A stretch of 37,466 bases of DNA, taken from positions 1-37,466 of the forward strand of contig CACWLG010000044.1 of assembly GCA_902761635.1 (NCBI GenBank). The letters run 5' to 3'. Both the position numbers and the translations under genes were made by a program. This DNA comes from Oscillospiraceae bacterium. GTDB taxonomy: Bacteria > Bacillota > Clostridia > Oscillospirales > Oscillospiraceae. Below are positions 20,573 to 28,516 of this stretch, one piece after another (position 1 is the first letter of the stretch; each line of letters starts with the position of its first letter). The notes beneath the pieces were generated by a model. The model was given only the letters and a program-made list of their open reading frames with translations, had not been told where the DNA came from and ran no database searches.

Positions 20573-21022
20573 ATGACTGATCACGAAGCCAGCATGTCTC
20601 TCGCCCTTGCCCTTGCGCGCGAGGCGTATGCGCACGGGGAAGTGCCGGTCGGCGCTGTCGTTGTCGGGCCGGACGGTGTGATCCTCGGGCGCGGGCGCAA
20701 CAGGAGGCAGGAGACCGGGGACGCCACCGCCCATGCCGAACTCGAAGCCATCCGCGAGGCCTGCCGGGCTCTCGGCGACTGGCGGCTTTCAGGCTGCACG
20801 CTCTATGTCACGCTGGAGCCCTGCCCCATGTGCGCCGGGGCCGTCATCAACGCCCGTCTCCCTGCGCTGGTCTACGGCGCGCGGGAGCCCCTGACCGGCT
20901 CCTGCGGCAGTGTCATCGACCTGTTTTTTGAGCGCTACGGCCACCGCCCGGCGGTCTATCCGGGCGTTTTGGAGGCGGAATGCGCCGGACTGCTGCAGGC
21001 CTTTTTTCGGGACAAGCGCTGA
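20573..21022 (+). CDS. tadA: tRNA-specific adenosine deaminase
   Basis: Converts A34 to inosine in the anticodon of tRNA-Arg(ACG). A 149-residue member of the cytidine/deoxycytidylate deaminase fold. The zinc-site residues are visible: H54 and the proton-shuttling E56 in TAHAELEAI, then C84 and C87 in EPCPMCAGA. The substrate-loop region VPVGAVVVGPDG and the tail VLEAECAGLLQAFFRDKR match TadA. Length is normal. ATG 20573 has AGGAGG at 20560-20565. Confidence 0.95.
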   Translation: MTDHEASMSLALALAREAYAHGEVPVGAVVVGPDGVILGRGRNRRQETGDATAHAELEAIREACRALGDWRLSGCTLYVTLEPCPMCAGAVINARLPALVYGAREPLTGSCGSVIDLFFERYGHRPAVYPGVLEAECAGLLQAFFRDKR

Positions 21023-21156: not shown

Positions 21157-23163
21157 ATGAAACACAACCTGGAAAAGAAGTTCAGCTCCTTTGACCTGAT
21201 CCTGGTCCTGGCGCTGATTGCCGTACTGCTGATCAACATTTTTGTGATCGGCAATCTCCGCGGCCCCGGTGAACGCAAGGCCTCCAAGGACGCAGTCACC
21301 GTGACCGGCAGTGCTCCCGGCAAGGTCGGAGATGTGACCGTTGAGGTCGTGGCCGACGCTAACAACATCTATTCCGTCACCGTGACCGGGCAGAACGAGA
21401 CCCCGGGTATCGGCTCGCTCGCGGTCGAGCAGCTCCCCGCCGCCATCGGCAAGGCAAACTCCCTTGACGTGGACGGCGTCTCCACCGCCACGGTGACAAG
21501 CGACGCCATCAAGGCCGCCGTTGCCGCAGCGCTGGAAAGCGCCGGCTTTGATCCGGCAGGCTTCGGCTACACCGCTCCGGCTCCCGAGCCTGCGGCTGAG
21601 GCTGCCGCTGCGGAGACCGCAGCGCCTGTGGTCCGGGAGGACGGCAAGGTCACTGCCACCGGCAAGGGCAAGGGCATCGACGGCGACGTGCTCGTTGAGG
21701 TCGTTGCCGACGCGAACACCATCTATGAGGTCAACATCCTCCAGCAGAACGAGACCCCGGGCATCGGCTCCGTCGCGGTTGAAAAGCTTCCCGCCGCCAT
21801 CGTGGAGGCAAACTCCATCTCGGTCGACGTCATCACCGGCGCGACAGTGACCAGCACCGCCATCAGAACCGCCGTCACCGAGGCGCTCACCGCTGCCGGC
21901 TTTGATCCGGCGAACTTCGGTGCCGGCGCAGAGGCCGCTCCCGCAGAGGAAGCCGCGCCTGTTCAGGAAGCAGCCCCCGCCCAGGAGGCCGCGCCTGCTG
22001 AAATCCCCGCCGACGCTGTCACCGTGACCGGCAAGGGCGCCGGCATCGGCGGCGACGTTGTGGTTGAGGTCGTGACCGACGGCACCAACATCTATGCCGT
22101 CACCGTCCTTGAGCAGAACGAGACCCCGGGCATCGGCTCCGTCGCGGCAGAAAAGCTCCCCGCTGCGATTGTCGCGGCCAACTCCGTTGAGGTTGACGCC
22201 ATCACCGGCGCGACCGTGACGAGCACTGCCATCAAGACCGCTGTCACCGAGGCCATGGCAAGCCTCAATGCCGCGCCTGCCGAAGATGCCGCTCCCGCCG
22301 AAGAGCCTGCCGAGGCAGCCGAGGAGACCCACAGCGGCTCCGCCGCGCTGCAGGCCACTGTCGACGGCAGGAACGGTCCGCTGGTCGTTGAGGTCATTGT
22401 CAAGGACGGCGTTATCACCAAGGTGGATGTCCTTGAGCACAGCGAGACCCAGGGTGTCGGCTCCGTCGCTGTTGACTGGATGCCCGGCCGCATCCTTGAG
22501 GCAAATTCCGCCGACGTGGACGGCGTGACCGGTGCCACCATCACCTCCGATGCCATCAAGGCCGCTGTCCGCCAGGCTTTGGAGCTTGCGGAAAACGGCC
22601 AGCCCGCAGCGGAAGCCGCTGCCCTTGCTGAGCCTGTCACCGTGCAGGCCACTGTCGACGGCAGAAACGGTCCCATCACCGTGGAAGTTACCACCGACGG
22701 CGTGAACATCCGCGATGTGAAGGTGCTGGAGAGCAGCGAGACCCAGGGTGTCGGCTCTGTCGCCGCCGACTGGCTGCCCGCGCGGATCGTGGAGGCAAAC
22801 ACCGTTGACATTGACGGCATTACCGGCGCGACCATCACCTCCGACGCCATCAAGTCCGCCGTCACCACCGCCGTTGCGCTTGCAAAGAACGGCACGACAG
22901 GCGAGCCTGTCATCGTGACGGTCGAGGCCGCAGGCAAAAACGGCCCCATCGTCCTTGAGGTCACAACCGACGGAAAGAACATCGCCGATGTGAAGGTGCT
23001 GGAGAGCAGCGAGACCGTGGGCGTCGGCGCGGTAGCCGTCGAGTGGCTGCCCGGGCGCATCGTCGAGGCAAACGCCGTTGACATTGACGGCATTACCGGC
23101 GCAACCATCACCTCCGACGCCATCAAGTCCGCCGTCCGCGAGGCCATGGACAAGGCCGCCTGA
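21157..23163 (+). CDS. Membrane-anchored protein with six tandem FMN-binding domains
   Basis: A 668-residue protein: a short basic N-terminus, one membrane helix (residues ~13-33, LILVLALIAVLLINIFVIG), then six FMN-binding (FMN_bind) domains facing out. Each has a V[VT]VEV...D...I core, a (N/S)ET(P/Q)G(I/V)G motif and a Dxx(S/T)GAT flavinylation motif, where ApbE-type transferases attach FMN to the Thr. The Asp/Thr pairs are D224/T230, D347/T353, D455/T461, D553/T559 and D644/T650; the first domain reads DGVSTAT (D106/T112), with Gly changed to Thr. Ala/Pro/Glu-rich linkers separate domains 1-4. Domains 1-3 use NETPGIGS and GATVTS, domains 4-6 SETQGVGS-like and GATITS, so two subfamilies were each amplified. 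Likely an extracytoplasmic electron carrier, comparable to PplA of Listeria, feeding the reductase encoded next. ATG 21157 has GGGGAGG. Confidence 0.92.
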   Translation: MKHNLEKKFSSFDLILVLALIAVLLINIFVIGNLRGPGERKASKDAVTVTGSAPGKVGDVTVEVVADANNIYSVTVTGQNETPGIGSLAVEQLPAAIGKANSLDVDGVSTATVTSDAIKAAVAAALESAGFDPAGFGYTAPAPEPAAEAAAAETAAPVVREDGKVTATGKGKGIDGDVLVEVVADANTIYEVNILQQNETPGIGSVAVEKLPAAIVEANSISVDVITGATVTSTAIRTAVTEALTAAGFDPANFGAGAEAAPAEEAAPVQEAAPAQEAAPAEIPADAVTVTGKGAGIGGDVVVEVVTDGTNIYAVTVLEQNETPGIGSVAAEKLPAAIVAANSVEVDAITGATVTSTAIKTAVTEAMASLNAAPAEDAAPAEEPAEAAEETHSGSAALQATVDGRNGPLVVEVIVKDGVITKVDVLEHSETQGVGSVAVDWMPGRILEANSADVDGVTGATITSDAIKAAVRQALELAENGQPAAEAAALAEPVTVQATVDGRNGPITVEVTTDGVNIRDVKVLESSETQGVGSVAADWLPARIVEANTVDIDGITGATITSDAIKSAVTTAVALAKNGTTGEPVIVTVEAAGKNGPIVLEVTTDGKNIADVKVLESSETVGVGAVAVEWLPGRIVEANAVDIDGITGATITSDAIKSAVREAMDKAA

Positions 23164-23190
23164 GCGAGACCTCCGTACAACGCTTTTGAT

Positions 23191-23224
23191 TCCCGGCAGT
23201 CGTAACAACTGCCGGGATTTTTTT
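23191..23224 (+). terminator. Intrinsic terminator of the hexa-FMN protein gene
   Basis: TCCCGGCAGT pairs with ACTGCCGGGA around a seven-base loop, followed by TTTTTTT. Confidence 0.92.
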
Positions 23225-23259
23225 CGGGAATTTTTTGAACAGATTGACAGGATTCTCAA

Positions 23260-23288
23260 TTGACGATGAAAGCAAGAAATGATATACT
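23260..23288 (+). promoter_or_regulatory. Sigma-A promoter of the double flavoprotein gene
   Basis: TTGACG (23260-23265), 17-base spacer, TATACT (23283-23288). The leader of ~90 bases carries a hairpin CCGAAGGCG/CGCCTTCGG (23302-23310 with 23318-23326) without a T-run, which may stabilise the mRNA. Confidence 0.75.
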
Positions 23289-23383
23289 TTTCACAGAATG
23301 CCCGAAGGCGATGACCCCGCCTTCGGTGAACGGATAATCCTATTCATATCAAGCTTCGAGAGGAGCTTAAAAGGAGGAAGACT

Positions 23384-26300
23384 ATGAAGAAGACACTGTC
23401 CCTGCTTTTGGCCCTGATGATGCTTCTGTCCCTCGCGGTTCCGGTTTACGCGGACGACGCGCAGACCGCCCAGGGCAAGGGCACCGGCATCGACGGCGAG
23501 GTCGTCGTCGAAGTCAAGGCTGACGCGAACACCATCTATGAAGTAAATGTAGTCCAGCAGAACGAGACCCCGGGCATCGGCTCCGTCGCGGTTGAGAAGC
23601 TGCCCGGCGCGATCGTCGCGGCAAACTCCCTCGAGGTCGACGGCATCACGGGCGCGACGGTGACCAGCACTGCCATCAAGGCCGCCGTCACCGAGGCCCT
23701 GACCGCCATGGGCTTTGATCCCGCGAGCTATCAGGGCGCTGCCGCCGCTGCCGAGGAGGCTGCCCCCGCCGAGAAGAGTGCTGAGACCCTTGACTGCGAT
23801 GTCGTGGTCATCGGCGCAGGCGGCGCCGGCATGACCGCCGCCATCACCGCCTCCGATGAGGGCGCGAACGTCATCATCCTTGAGAGCACCAGCTTCCCCG
23901 GCGGCAACTCTGTCCGCTCCACCGGCGGTATGAACGCCGGCCCCACCGAGTGGCGCAACATGAACGAGTTCGGCGAAGCCGCGGGCGTTGAGGCCACCCT
24001 CAAGAAGGTCGCCAACTTCCCCGATAACGCGCGCATTCAGGAGCTGGGCAAGATCGTTGAAGAGCAGTGGGCCGCCTACCAGGCCGATCCCCAGGGCTAC
24101 TTTGATACCTCCGAGCTCTTCCAGCTCGATACCCTTATCGGCGGCGGCGGTATGAACGATCCCGCCCTGGTCAAGAAGCTCGTCGAGTCCAGCCCCGCCG
24201 CCATTGACTGGCTCGATTCCCTCGATCCTGAGATCATCCTGCACGATGTGGCTGCATTCGGCGGCGCGTCCGTCAAGCGCATCCACCGCCCGGTGGACGA
24301 AAACGGCAAGTCCCTCTCCGTCGGCGCGTACGTCGTTCCCCTGCTCCAGGAGAACCTTGAAAAGCGCGGCATCAAACTCCTGACCGACACCCCCGCCACC
24401 GAGATCCTGATGGATAACGGCACGGCTGTCGGCGTGAAGGCCGAGAGCGCAGATACCTCCTACACCATTAACGCCAAGGCGGTGGTCATCGCCTCCGGCG
24501 GCTTCGGCGCGAACAACGACATGATCAAGGCTGTCCGCCCCGAGCTTGACGGCTTCATCACCACCAACGCTCCCGGCATCCAGGGCCAGGGCATCCAGAT
24601 GGCCCAGGCCGTCGGTGCCGACACCGTCGATATGGAGCAGATCCAGCTCCACCCGACCGTCCATGTGGAAGGCACCAGCGCAAACCTCATCACCGAGGGT
24701 CTGCGCGGCGACGGCGCCATCCTTGTCAACCAGGAAGGTGAGCGCTTCTTCGACGAAGTCTCCACCCGCGACAAGGTCTCCGCTGCCGAGTTTGAGCAGA
24801 CCGGCGGCTATGCCTGGCTCATCATCGACAGCCGCATGTATGACAAGTCCAATGTCATCCAGGGCTATGTCAAGAAGGGTTTTGCCGAGACCGGCGACAC
24901 CTACGTCGCCCTGGCTGATGCCATCGGTGCTCCCGCTGAGGCGCTTGTCAACACCTTGATCAATTGGAACACGTGCGTGGAGCAGAAGTCCGATCCCGAG
25001 TTCGGCCGCGTTTCCTTCGCCAATCCCCTTGATCAGGCTCCCTTCTACGCCATCAAGGTTCAGCCCGGTGTCCACCACACCATGGGCGGTATCAAGATCA
25101 ACGACAACGCGCAGGTCATCGACACCGAAGGCAATGTGATCCCCGCCCTCTTCGCAGCGGGCGAAGTCACCGGCGGCGTGCACGGCAACAACCGTCTGGG
25201 CGGCAACGCTGTGGCCGACTTCACCATCTACGGCCGCATCGCCGGCCAGAACGCGGCGGATTTTGCCAAGGGCGGCGCTTCCGTGGAAGCTGCCCCCGCT
25301 GAGGCTGCCGCTCCCGCGGCTGACGGCGTCCAGACCGCCACCGCCAAGGCCCCCGGCATCGGCGGCGACGTGGTGGTTGAGGTCAAGGCCGACGCCGCCA
25401 CCATCTACGAAGTCAACATCCTCGAGCAGAACGAGACCCCGGGCATCGGCTCCGTGGCCGCTGAGAAGCTGCCCGCCGCGATGGTCACGGGCAACACCGT
25501 CGACGTCGACGCCATCACCGGTGCGACCGTCACCTCCACCGCCATCAAGACCGCCGTCACCGAGGCGCTGACCACTCTGGGCTTTGATCCTGCTGCCTAC
25601 ACCGGCGCTCCCGCCGAGGCTGCGGTTCCCGCCGAGAAGGCGGAGGAGACCCTTGACTGCGACGTGGTCGTCATCGGCGCGGGCGGCGCGGGCATGACCG
25701 CCGCCATCACCGCCTCCGATGCGGGCAAGAACGTCATCGTCCTCGAGAGCACCAGCTTCCCCGGCGGCAACTCCGTCCGCTCCACTGGCGGCATGAACGC
25801 CGGTCCCACCGAGTGGCGCAACCAGAATGAGTTCAAGGAAGGCGCAGGCGTTGAGGCCACCCTCAAGAAGGTCGCAAACTACCCCGACAACGCCCGCATC
25901 CAGGAGCTGGGCAAGATCGTCGAGGAGCAGTGGGCCGCCTACCAGGCCGCTCCCGAGGGCTACTTCGACACCGCCGAGCTCTTCCAGCTTGACACCCTCA
26001 TCGGCGGCGGCGGAATGAACGATCCCTCCCTCGTGAAGAAGCTGGTGGAATCCAGCGCCGACGCCATTGCCTGGCTTGACTCCCTCGATCCCGAGATCGT
26101 GCTGCATAACGTCGCTGCCTTCGGCGGCGCCTCCGTCAAGCGCATCCACCGTCCCGTGGACGCAGACGGCAAGGTCGTCTCCGTCGGCGCCTATGTCGTT
26201 CCCCTGCTGCAGGAGAACCTGGAAAAGCGCGGCATCACCCTTATGACCGATACCCCCGCTACCGAGATCCTTACCGATAACGGCGCTGTCGTCGGCGTGA

Positions 26301-27157
26301 AGGCCAAGGGCGCGGACCGCAGCTACACCATCAACGCAAACGCTGTCGTCATCGCCTCCGGCGGCTTCGGCGCAAACAATGACATGATCGCCTCCATCCG
26401 TCCCGAGCTTGACGGCTTCATCACCACCAACGCCCCCGGCATCCAGGGTCAGGGCATCCAGATGGCCCAGGCTATCGGCGCGGACACGGTTGACATGGAG
26501 CAGATCCAGCTCCACCCGACCGTCCATGTGGAAGGCGCCAGCGCAAACCTCATCACCGAAGGTCTGCGCGGCGACGGCGCGATCCTGGTCAACCAGGAGG
26601 GCAAGCGCTTCTTCGATGAAGTGTCCACCCGCGACAAGGTCAGTGCGGCCGAGTTTGAGCAGACCGGCGGCTACGCCTGGCTGATCGTTGACAGCCGCAT
26701 GTCCGAGGCCTCCAACGTCATCCAGGGCTACATCAAGAAGGGCTTTGCCGAGACCGGTGACAGCTATGAAGCGCTGGCCGAGGCCATCGGTGCTCCCGCC
26801 GACGCCTTTGTTGAGACCATGAACGCCTGGAATGCCTGCGTGGAAGCCAAGTCCGATCCCGACTTCAACCGCGTCTCCTTCGCCAATCCCCTCGATCAGG
26901 CTCCCTTCTACGCCATCAAGGTGCAGCCCGGCATCCACCACACCATGGGCGGCATCAAGATCAACGACAATGCTGAGGTCATCAGCACCGACGGCAGTGT
27001 GATCCCCGGCCTCTTCGCAGCGGGCGAGGTCACCGGCGGCGTGCACGGCAACAACCGTCTGGGCGGCAACGCCGTGGCCGACTTCACCATCTTCGGCCGC
27101 ATTGCCGGTCAGGCTGCCGCGGATTATCAGGCCGCGGCCCTCGATCAGGCCGCGTAA
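23384..27157 (+). CDS. Secreted tandem-duplicated FMN/FAD fumarate-reductase-like flavoprotein
   Basis: A 1257-residue exported flavoprotein built as signal peptide (1-24, cut after VYA), FMN-binding domain 1 (~28-115, DGITGAT with T92), FAD_binding_2/fumarate-reductase domain 1 (~135-625), FMN-binding domain 2 (~646-740, DAITGAT with T715), FAD domain 2 (~757-1250). Each FAD domain has the dinucleotide motif GAGGAGM (G144 and G765) and the four residues that in Shewanella soluble fumarate reductase bind and protonate substrate: His in QLHPT (H423, H1044), Arg in STRD (R462, R1083), His in HHTMGG (H564-565, H1185-1186) and Arg in NNRLGG (R604, R1225). The two halves are offset by 621-623 residues and nearly identical. 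Relatives with one unit reduce fumarate, urocanate, acrylates or other enoates; the substrate here is unknown. ATG 23384 has AAAAGGAGG. No membrane anchor or lipobox. Confidence 0.93.
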   Translation: MKKTLSLLLALMMLLSLAVPVYADDAQTAQGKGTGIDGEVVVEVKADANTIYEVNVVQQNETPGIGSVAVEKLPGAIVAANSLEVDGITGATVTSTAIKAAVTEALTAMGFDPASYQGAAAAAEEAAPAEKSAETLDCDVVVIGAGGAGMTAAITASDEGANVIILESTSFPGGNSVRSTGGMNAGPTEWRNMNEFGEAAGVEATLKKVANFPDNARIQELGKIVEEQWAAYQADPQGYFDTSELFQLDTLIGGGGMNDPALVKKLVESSPAAIDWLDSLDPEIILHDVAAFGGASVKRIHRPVDENGKSLSVGAYVVPLLQENLEKRGIKLLTDTPATEILMDNGTAVGVKAESADTSYTINAKAVVIASGGFGANNDMIKAVRPELDGFITTNAPGIQGQGIQMAQAVGADTVDMEQIQLHPTVHVEGTSANLITEGLRGDGAILVNQEGERFFDEVSTRDKVSAAEFEQTGGYAWLIIDSRMYDKSNVIQGYVKKGFAETGDTYVALADAIGAPAEALVNTLINWNTCVEQKSDPEFGRVSFANPLDQAPFYAIKVQPGVHHTMGGIKINDNAQVIDTEGNVIPALFAAGEVTGGVHGNNRLGGNAVADFTIYGRIAGQNAADFAKGGASVEAAPAEAAAPAADGVQTATAKAPGIGGDVVVEVKADAATIYEVNILEQNETPGIGSVAAEKLPAAMVTGNTVDVDAITGATVTSTAIKTAVTEALTTLGFDPAAYTGAPAEAAVPAEKAEETLDCDVVVIGAGGAGMTAAITASDAGKNVIVLESTSFPGGNSVRSTGGMNAGPTEWRNQNEFKEGAGVEATLKKVANYPDNARIQELGKIVEEQWAAYQAAPEGYFDTAELFQLDTLIGGGGMNDPSLVKKLVESSADAIAWLDSLDPEIVLHNVAAFGGASVKRIHRPVDADGKVVSVGAYVVPLLQENLEKRGITLMTDTPATEILTDNGAVVGVKAKGADRSYTINANAVVIASGGFGANNDMIASIRPELDGFITTNAPGIQGQGIQMAQAIGADTVDMEQIQLHPTVHVEGASANLITEGLRGDGAILVNQEGKRFFDEVSTRDKVSAAEFEQTGGYAWLIVDSRMSEASNVIQGYIKKGFAETGDSYEALAEAIGAPADAFVETMNAWNACVEAKSDPDFNRVSFANPLDQAPFYAIKVQPGIHHTMGGIKINDNAEVISTDGSVIPGLFAAGEVTGGVHGNNRLGGNAVADFTIFGRIAGQAAADYQAAALDQAA
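23456..27122 (+). repeat. Intragenic tandem duplication, two ~1.86-kb units
   Basis: Unit 1 (about 23456-25259) and unit 2 (about 25319-27122) each encode one FMN-binding plus one FAD domain. Landmarks are offset by 1869 bases in the FMN part and 1863 bases in the FAD part, a two-codon indel. Long stretches are identical at DNA level (for example around 25151 and 27014), pointing to a recent duplication or ongoing gene conversion. Confidence 0.9.
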
Positions 27158-27205: not shown

Positions 27206-27235
27206 TGCATTTTTTCCCCCTTTTTGCACACCCTA
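27206..27235 (+). promoter_or_regulatory. Candidate sigma-G promoter of ypeB
   Basis: TGCATT (27206-27211), 17-base spacer, CACCCTA (27229-27235) resembles the forespore pattern TGMATA then CATNNTA. Transcription would start near 27241. The match is moderate, but ypeB is forespore-expressed in Bacillus. Confidence 0.4.
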
Positions 27236-27249
27236 ATGCAAAAAGGGGG
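27216..27249 (+). promoter_or_regulatory. Perfect hairpin that buries the ypeB ribosome-binding site
   Basis: CCCCCTTTTTGCA (27216-27228) pairs without mismatch with TGCAAAAAGGGGG (27237-27249) around an eight-base loop. The 3' arm contains the only Shine-Dalgarno-like sequence (AAAGGGGG) before ATG 27257. It could also act as a terminator for the flavoprotein gene, though the tail AATTTTC is poor. Confidence 0.7.
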
Positions 27250-27256
27250 AATTTTC

Positions 27257-28516
27257 ATGTCCATCAAGCTGAAACGTCTGCTTGTGATCTATACCGCCGC
27301 GGCGCTGATCGCCCTCTCCGGCTATGCGTATGCCGCGGCAGGGCAGCTCCGGCGCGTGCGCCTTACGGCGGGCTTTGAGTCCGCCCGGGCCTTTGAGGCG
27401 GCGGTGAGCGCGGCGGAGGATCTGAGCGCCGTCTTCAAAAAGCTCCGCTTTACCACGGATGACGCCCTGGGCAAGGCCCTCTGCGCCCGGGCCCTGGCCG
27501 ACGCCCAGTCGGCGGAGACGGCTCTTTCGATCCTGCCCTTTGAGACGCAGGAGCTTGAAAAGCTGCAGGGCTTTCTGGGGCGCGCCGGAGACTATGCCGA
27601 GAGTCTCTGCGCCCTGACGGACCGGAGCCTGCCCGCCGAACACCGGGAGCACCTGCTGGCCTTTGGAGAGGCGGCGGCAGATTTTGCGGAGCACCTGCGG
27701 GAGCTGCAGGGGATGCTGCACGAGGGCAGTATTCAGATGGACACGCTGGAAAAGCCGGTGCGCAACGTGACGGACGGGGACACGCAGCTCCTCTCCGCCC
27801 TGCTTCTGGGCTATGAGAGCAGCTTTACCGCCCCGGAGGAATTTCAGTATGAAGGCCGCTACAGCCTTGCGGCGGCCCCGGCAGCAGGCAGCCTCAAGGA
27901 GGAAGAGGCCCTCGCCATTGCGGCGAAGGCCGTCGGAGTGGAGCCCCGGGAGCTGCGGGAGGAATACAGCTACGAAGGGCCGGAGGGCCGACGCTGCTAC
28001 AGTGCGGGCGGAACACTTCTGGGTGTGAGCAGCCGGGGTCTCGAGTTCATGGGCCAGTCCCGCCTCGTAAGCCGGGCGGAGCTTGACCGGGACGAGGCGC
28101 AGAAGCGGGCGGAGGATTTTCTCGCGCGCATGGGCTATACGGATCTGCAGCTCTATGCAGCCGGCGGCAGCGAGACCATCGCCGTCTTCCGCTACGCGCC
28201 GCAGCAGGACGGCGTTATGCGGCCGGATGACGCGCTCAGCCTCTCCATCGCCCTGGACGACGGGAGCGTCTACGCCCTGGATGCCACGAAATACAGCCCC
28301 TGGGCCGTGGATGTGAGCTGGAACACGGATGAGGAGGAGGCCCTTGCCACCCTTCCGGAGGGCGTGGAGGTCGACGGGACACGGCGTCTGATCCTCAAAA
28401 CCCTCAGCGGGACCTATCGCCCCTGCTGGGAGCTCACGTGCACAGACGACGCCGGCGAGAGCGCCCGAATCTGCGTGGACGCCGGAACGGGGAGGCAGTA
28501 CAGGGTCGAGATATAG
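27257..28516 (+). CDS. ypeB: Germination protein YpeB
   Basis: YpeB is a spore protein that stabilises the cortex-lytic enzyme SleB. This 419-residue protein has an N-terminal membrane helix or uncleaved signal (residues ~7-28), a long helical N-domain (~30-185, including KPVRNVTDGDTQLLSALLLG, a family landmark), and a C-terminal part with repeated PepSY-like modules: EEALAIAAKAVGV, then RDEAQKRAEDFLARMGYTDLQ, then a final ICVDAGTGRQYRVEI. It is slightly shorter than B. subtilis YpeB (~450). Usually sleB lies directly upstream; here that place is taken by the double flavoprotein, so sleB must be elsewhere or absent. Start ATG 27257 follows GGGGG by seven bases. Expected in the forespore. Confidence 0.9.
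   Translation: MSIKLKRLLVIYTAAALIALSGYAYAAAGQLRRVRLTAGFESARAFEAAVSAAEDLSAVFKKLRFTTDDALGKALCARALADAQSAETALSILPFETQELEKLQGFLGRAGDYAESLCALTDRSLPAEHREHLLAFGEAAADFAEHLRELQGMLHEGSIQMDTLEKPVRNVTDGDTQLLSALLLGYESSFTAPEEFQYEGRYSLAAAPAAGSLKEEEALAIAAKAVGVEPRELREEYSYEGPEGRRCYSAGGTLLGVSSRGLEFMGQSRLVSRAELDRDEAQKRAEDFLARMGYTDLQLYAAGGSETIAVFRYAPQQDGVMRPDDALSLSIALDDGSVYALDATKYSPWAVDVSWNTDEEEALATLPEGVEVDGTRRLILKTLSGTYRPCWELTCTDDAGESARICVDAGTGRQYRVEI

Follow-up and report, generated by a model that had tools for sequence, protein, structure and literature searches.

A predicted secreted reductase with two FMN-FAD units in one chain, encoded in an Oscillospiraceae genome

Domain architecture and active sites of the two-headed protein

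Does a polypeptide that carries two flavin mononucleotide (FMN)-flavin adenine dinucleotide (FAD) units act as one reductase with two catalytic heads, and what would the second head be for? The question is raised by an open reading frame (ORF) at 23384–27157 (+) of the 37,466-nucleotide contig CACWLG010000044.1 of an Oscillospiraceae bacterium (assembly GCA_902761635.1), the whole of which is called the window here. Translation yielded a single ORF of 1257 amino acids (aa) with an ATG start and no internal stop, in which the domains followed the order FMN-FAD-FMN-FAD behind a signal-peptide-like start. The initial annotation had proposed two intact FMN-FAD units in one exported chain; the ORF, the Pfam matches and the motifs bore out the two units, and the signal-peptide-like start would fit export. 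A putative Sec-type signal peptide MKKTLSLLLALMMLLSLAVPVYA (residues 1–23; 23384–23452, +) and its cleavage site were read by eye from the sequence. It is followed by FMN-binding domain 1 (23483–23710, +; D86-GITGA-T92), FAD head 1 (23783–25303, +), FMN-binding domain 2 (25352–25579, +; D709-AITGA-T715) and FAD head 2 (25646–27133, +), all in the coordinates of our own models. Pfam searches matched FAD_binding_2 (E 1.7e-165) and, in two stretches, FMN_bind (E 2.2e-29); PF00890 reached 551.7 bits (cut-off 20.4) and NCBIfam flavo_cyto_c (TIGR01813) 872.6 bits (cut-off 285.45), both being whole-protein scores that span the two heads. The motif scan located DGITGAT at residue 86 and DAITGAT at residue 709, so that both FMN domains carry the ApbE attachment motif, given as D-x-x-[S/T]-G-A-[S/T] in excerpts of PMC12052999, and the protein, with two such domains, is predicted to be multi-flavinylated. 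The two halves were identical at 511 of 607 aligned residues (84%). At the DNA level the unit recurred with start-to-start spacings of 1863 and 1869 nt in 300-nt blocks at 79–87% identity, which exceeds chance.

Alignment of the two heads to chains of Shewanella FccA (PDB 1qjd and others) mapped H423, L435, T437, E438, R441, R462, H564, H565 and R604 in head 1, and H1044, L1056, T1058, E1059, R1062, R1083, H1185, H1186 and R1225 in head 2. The FccA residues H365, T377, E378, R381, R402, H504 and R544 thus have their equivalents in both heads, with M375 replaced by Leu, and the FccA head shares its catalytic residues with both. All ten active-site residues named in the initial annotation were found at their positions in the residue scan. 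Over the stretch 416–465 the two heads differed at 2 of 50 positions, and the mapped pocket residues were identical. According to parts of the paper on the urocanate reductase UrdA (PMC7921117), a histidine separates fumarate from urocanate reductases, and a Glu/Arg/Arg proton path is a fumarate reductase trait. At the position of FccA His365, where UrdA has Tyr373, the window protein has His423 and His1044. The shared pocket residues, judged by the criteria of that paper, suggest that both heads are of the fumarate type, and we predict like specificity for the two. The suggestion that the duplicated unit might provide two related substrate specificities found no support here, since every mappable substrate residue is common to both pockets and a comparison of the residues lining them returned the same fumarate reductase set.

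These sequence data led us to propose, with a probability of about 0.6, that ApbE flavinylates this protein and that, once secreted, it acts as a fumarate reductase with two equivalent catalytic heads per chain; it would be fed via a six-FMN conduit, and its tandem would have been made by recombination at a genomic slot. Reduced ferredoxin would feed the RNF complex, which would hand electrons on to the six-FMN conduit outside the membrane; from there they would reach FMN1 and FMN2 and finally the FAD heads, where fumarate, or a close dicarboxylic enoate, would be reduced to succinate. The second head would represent added capacity on one conduit and not a second substrate. The tandem would arise and rearrange by recombination among near-identical flavin modules at a slot between tadA and a YpeB-like gene, which in relatives holds other numbers, orders and kinds of modules.

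Two-headed frames among relatives and the role of the second head

A scan of a species collection, which sought near-exact peptides and was therefore confined to close relatives, returned 12 loci in records titled Ruminococcaceae, Oscillospiraceae, Clostridia, Clostridiales or Eubacteriales, with locus L031 as a weak match. One of them, L020, encodes FMN-FAD-FMN-FAD with a different first head, and another, L021 (RUG13571, a separately deposited assembly), is also two-headed in the order FMN-FMN-FAD-FAD; the remaining loci comprised either single units or FMN arrays enclosing a FAD head. A query spanning the FAD1-FMN2-FAD2 junction matched 41 of the 101 genomes of the window's genus, the window included, with a full or nearly full span in five other genomes. 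Over the other 40 matching genomes 52 stretches were fetched, several of which were scan loci again, among them G917 (L020) and G945 (L021). Two or more heads in one frame were present in 10 of the 101 genomes: the frame is whole in G000, G917, G939, G945, G878 and G896, interrupted in head 2 in G958, and cut by a contig end in G928, G951 and G955. The frame of G878 comprises nine domains in 1813 aa. Heads were typed on a quick tree of 58 heads, some rows of which were partial, and the two types are about 54% identical. The pairs were I+I in three genomes (G000, G945, G928), II+I in five (G917, G939, G878, G958, G951), II+II in one (G896) and untyped in one (G955). When FMN and FAD domains were counted, leaving aside NrfA in L138 and L143 as well as the N-terminal regions of L118 and L119, 16 kinds of architecture were distinguished in 43 whole ORFs, or 12 kinds in 38 without five ORFs that look frame-broken or truncated (L120, two of L129, L143, L153). 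The single FMN-FAD unit was the commonest form: among the 34 whole, FAD-head-bearing ORFs that were counted, it accounted for 20. Two of these relatives, at L118 4339–8205 (+) and L119 974–4495 (+), are FMN-FAD proteins with a long N-terminal part behind a lipoprotein-like signal; the part received no Pfam name at E 1e-5 in either, and in L118 it measures about 500 aa and looks internally repeated.

Among 394 genomes sampled from the order, 391 from the class and 398 from the phylum, none but the window's own showed the full-span junction; up to five candidates per genome were scored, so that divergent tandems may be missed. Partial spans, in which the match passes from the end of a FAD head into an FMN domain of the same frame but includes no second head, occurred in G299 (two places, one with an internal stop), G1296, G1334 and G966 (two internal stops). 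When 120 genomes of the family were searched with the full-length protein, five matched at E 1e-60, the window's own included. At L019 1–3339 (+) (G116:C1), in another genus of the same family, stops separate FAD, FMN and FAD parts that share one frame; we read them as separate or broken genes, a miscalled code being a further option, and they are the only hint of a two-headed form beyond the genus. In a plasmid collection 48 of 360 matching records covered 80% of the junction query, but the five records listed were two-piece matches over 1.6–1.8 kb with one annotated reductase name each and were read as single-headed genes. Within the samples searched, the results support the view that the two-headed form is rare outside the genus. 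The architecture had been called unusual in the initial annotation, which holds for its frequency; as a kind, it is already described in section 18 and the Fig. 6 legend of PMC8238504.

Both heads appear, from sequence comparison, to be under purifying selection. In comparison with the nearest relative, L021, head 1 showed a ratio of nonsynonymous to synonymous divergence (dN/dS) of 0.19 and head 2 one of 0.064, and between the two heads of the window the synonymous divergence (dS) was 0.41 with a ratio of 0.20. This constraint on both heads in the window protein and L021, together with the recurrence of two heads across the genus in three head-type pairings, argues against the view that the tandem is a neutral by-product of repeat recombination, no better than two separate copies. 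Such an origin would fit the predominance of the single FMN-FAD form and the wide variation of array content at the same slot, and we consider it somewhat unlikely. That the two heads act on two different substrates seems improbable: type I heads are paired with type II heads in five genomes, and a type II head is fused to an NrfA domain in G948, but the window heads are both of type I, 87% identical and alike in their mapped pockets, and type II heads also retain most of the mapped residues, with Ser in place of T377. Where a relative combines a type I head with the other, roughly half-identical type, differing specificities are possible.

Cooperative electron delivery, also raised in the initial annotation, is a possibility for which the sequences speak neither way. 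The order FMN-FMN-FAD-FAD in L021 suggests that a strict pairing of one FMN domain with each head is not required. This order, and the many multi-FMN arrays nearby, could also be taken to mean that one half of the window protein serves mainly as an electron relay, forming a four-flavin wire to a single working site, which we regard as a marginal prospect because both heads have intact catalytic residues, for which a pure relay would have no use. Each window head has its own ortholog in L021 (97% and 98% aa identity), which indicates that the split of the heads predates the split from L021; two heads in L021, along with a divergence of 13% between the window's heads in DNA, make a short-read artefact improbable. 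Hence in silico duplication of one unit is considered extremely improbable, even though the genome is a 176-contig draft with repeats (86% complete, 4.7% contamination) and several contig ends of relatives fall inside arrays, given also the full or nearly full-span junctions in five further genomes.

Module content of the tadA-YpeB slot

The left border of the slot is tadA (20573–21022, +), identified by a profile match and by comparison with relatives, and the right border in the window, L021, L022 and L023 is a YpeB-like gene (27224–28516, +), identified by Pfam and the same comparison; V-ATPase genes also lie to the right of the two-headed gene. Besides the window, 14 of the 52 fetched stretches have tadA as the border of an array. 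The array contents range from one FMN-FAD unit (L115, L139–L141) up to seven FMN domains plus FMN-FAD-FMN-FAD (L147), and in G912 (L143 3120–5299 (−)) FMN domains are followed by NrfA, with interrupted frames and the FMN part spread over two frames. Within 21157–27157 of the window, 12 exact repeats of 30–44 nt were counted, compared with 0 in five other 6-kb stretches of the window.

Single modules look to have been exchanged between lineages, as judged from uneven identities along the arrays. At the DNA level, FMN2 of the window and FMN2 of L020 were 97.5% identical over 81 codons, whereas FMN1 was 86.0% and tadA 79.4% identical. Head 1 of G928 and head 1 of the window shared 98.8% identity across 271 codons, while head 2 of G928 was 97.2% identical to head 2 of G939, in which the first head belongs to the other type. 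For tadA, which G928 has on another contig, the identity was 78.7% with the window and 94.9% with G939. Several points count against exchange. The dS among FAD heads was 0.31–0.46, even between loci at different places, as against 0.70 for tadA, and since it is low throughout, tadA is an imperfect yardstick and FMN1 a fairer one. Chimeric metagenome contigs, which may form at near-identical stretches, or binning could mimic exchange. In G928 the contig with the heads is cut, the genome has 7% contamination, and tadA is on a different contig from the mosaic heads, so this case leans on binning.

We tentatively picture the slot, at somewhat less than an even chance, as a rapidly reshuffled socket for external respiration, in which FMN wire segments and heads (type I, type II and pentahaem NrfA) may be interchangeable and recombined in frame within and between lineages. 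Each genome would thereby obtain its own multi-headed single-chain platform, that of the window being a doubled type I. This picture rests on draft, mostly metagenome, genomes. The natural variants within one genus, namely FMN-FAD-FMN-FAD, FMN-FMN-FAD-FAD, a single FMN-FAD beside a six-FMN wire and FMN joined to NrfA, make the modularity of covalent-flavin wires testable. Relatives with RUG in their record titles are presumably rumen genomes. External reduction of fumarate or nitrite by gut-type anaerobes could divert electrons from hydrogen, and such diversion would matter for ruminant fermentation and methane.

Proposed electron supply and comparison with known systems

Directly upstream of the two-headed gene lies the gene of the six-FMN protein (21157–23163, +; 668 aa), with six FMN_bind stretches in Pfam and an N-terminal hydrophobic membrane-anchor-like segment recognized by eye. 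The protein scored 119 bits as RnfG-like (cut-off 102). Five of its attachment motifs are canonical, and the first domain, with DGVSTAT, may be unflavinylated. It is likely to be the electron donor or conduit of the two-headed reductase. The window genome contains one ApbE gene and, on contig C11, an RNF cluster in the order RnfC-D-G-E-A-B, whose RnfG reached 99 bits in the profile search, under the same cut-off; two further FMN-FAD proteins and one FMN-NrfA protein are also encoded. No UbiA over the cut-off was found in this 86% complete genome, and 14 of 14 control genomes were positive, which makes a quinone route less likely.

In G948, of the same genus, the cluster runs RnfC, a fused RnfD-RnfG, RnfE, RnfA, RnfB, and the next gene on that strand is an FMN-FAD-NrfA gene (L138 4171–7143 (−), G948:C70), a single frame of 990 aa that encodes an FMN domain, a type II FAD head and an NrfA domain containing five haem motifs; CcsB is encoded further along. 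This adjacency supports RNF as the electron source for such proteins in the genus, and by analogy RNF may also feed the window protein. The FAD-NrfA junction was spanned whole in one of the 101 genomes (G948), and the query, which also matches FAD heads, had matches in 66 of them. Among 922 matching plasmid records, 0 covered 80% of the FMN-FAD-NrfA protein. On contig C45 of the window genome, L053 3668–5233 (−) encodes an FMN domain fused to an NrfA-like cytochrome (521 aa), adjoining another FMN-FAD reductase and a pair read by eye as ResB/CcsA-like.

Some observations speak against the proposed route and function. The window genes are on contig C44 and hence do not adjoin the RNF cluster, and one NapH-like Fer4_5 protein in the genome is an alternative possible donor. 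The six-FMN gene and the two-headed gene may not be co-transcribed, given the sites between them. Structure predictions of the tandem and of the single unit each gave a mean predicted local distance difference test score (pLDDT) of 55.6, too poor for FMN-FAD distances, and the substrate is not fixed by residue signatures alone. With regard to transcription, the signal scan placed a terminator-like hairpin of 10 pairs with a T run 3′ of the six-FMN gene (23191–23217, +), a promoter-like TTGACG-17-TATACT 5′ of the two-headed gene (23260–23288, +) and a terminator-like hairpin of 15 pairs 3′ of it (27214–27251, +). Framed by these sites, the two-headed gene may be transcribed alone. Promoter-like sites in the region numbered 5 against 0.9 expected, and hairpins as a class did not exceed the shuffled control (8 against 6.5 expected).

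The broad kind of protein is already in print, and what is added here is its frequency in the genus, the mixed head pairings, the varied slot arrays and the apparent module exchange. Excerpts of PMC8238504 (eLife 2021) describe an extracytosolic multi-FMN-domain protein; they also present gene clusters whose products carry several Fr-like domains, for which a multi-functional reductase platform is proposed. The window protein is similar in having more than one FMN domain and several Fr-like heads, and its signal-like start would fit an extracytosolic location; it differs in that its two heads look equivalent. Those excerpts contain no analysis of sequence, head types, selection or recombination for such a protein, and the words Ruminococc, Oscillospir and rumen were absent in a word search of the main text. 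In FccA, according to the same excerpts, electrons enter via haems, whereas in the window protein they would enter via FMN domains, with two heads per chain. Listeria FrdA (as treated there) and UrdA (in the parts of PMC7921117 cited above) are extracytosolic and combine an N-terminal covalent FMN domain with a FAD head, an arrangement that the window protein would share, but in the latter the unit is doubled and both heads have the fumarate-type His in place of Tyr373 of UrdA. The multi-FMN proteins SaFMN3 and CbFMN4, for which the abstract of PMC10339131 mentions covalent FMN domains only and no FAD heads, resemble the upstream six-FMN protein, and FMN domain 2 of the window protein has a match in PDB 8p2b (CbFMN4 domain 1). 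A main-text word search of the NrfA review PMC12285233 found neither FMN nor flavin. Among the literature retrieved, partly as excerpts, we recognized no other study of the two-headed protein, the head pairing or the module exchange, though others may exist.

On the opposite strand, an open frame of 1251 aa (23291–27046, −) covers nearly the whole two-headed gene and is probably a shadow of its GC content and codon bias.

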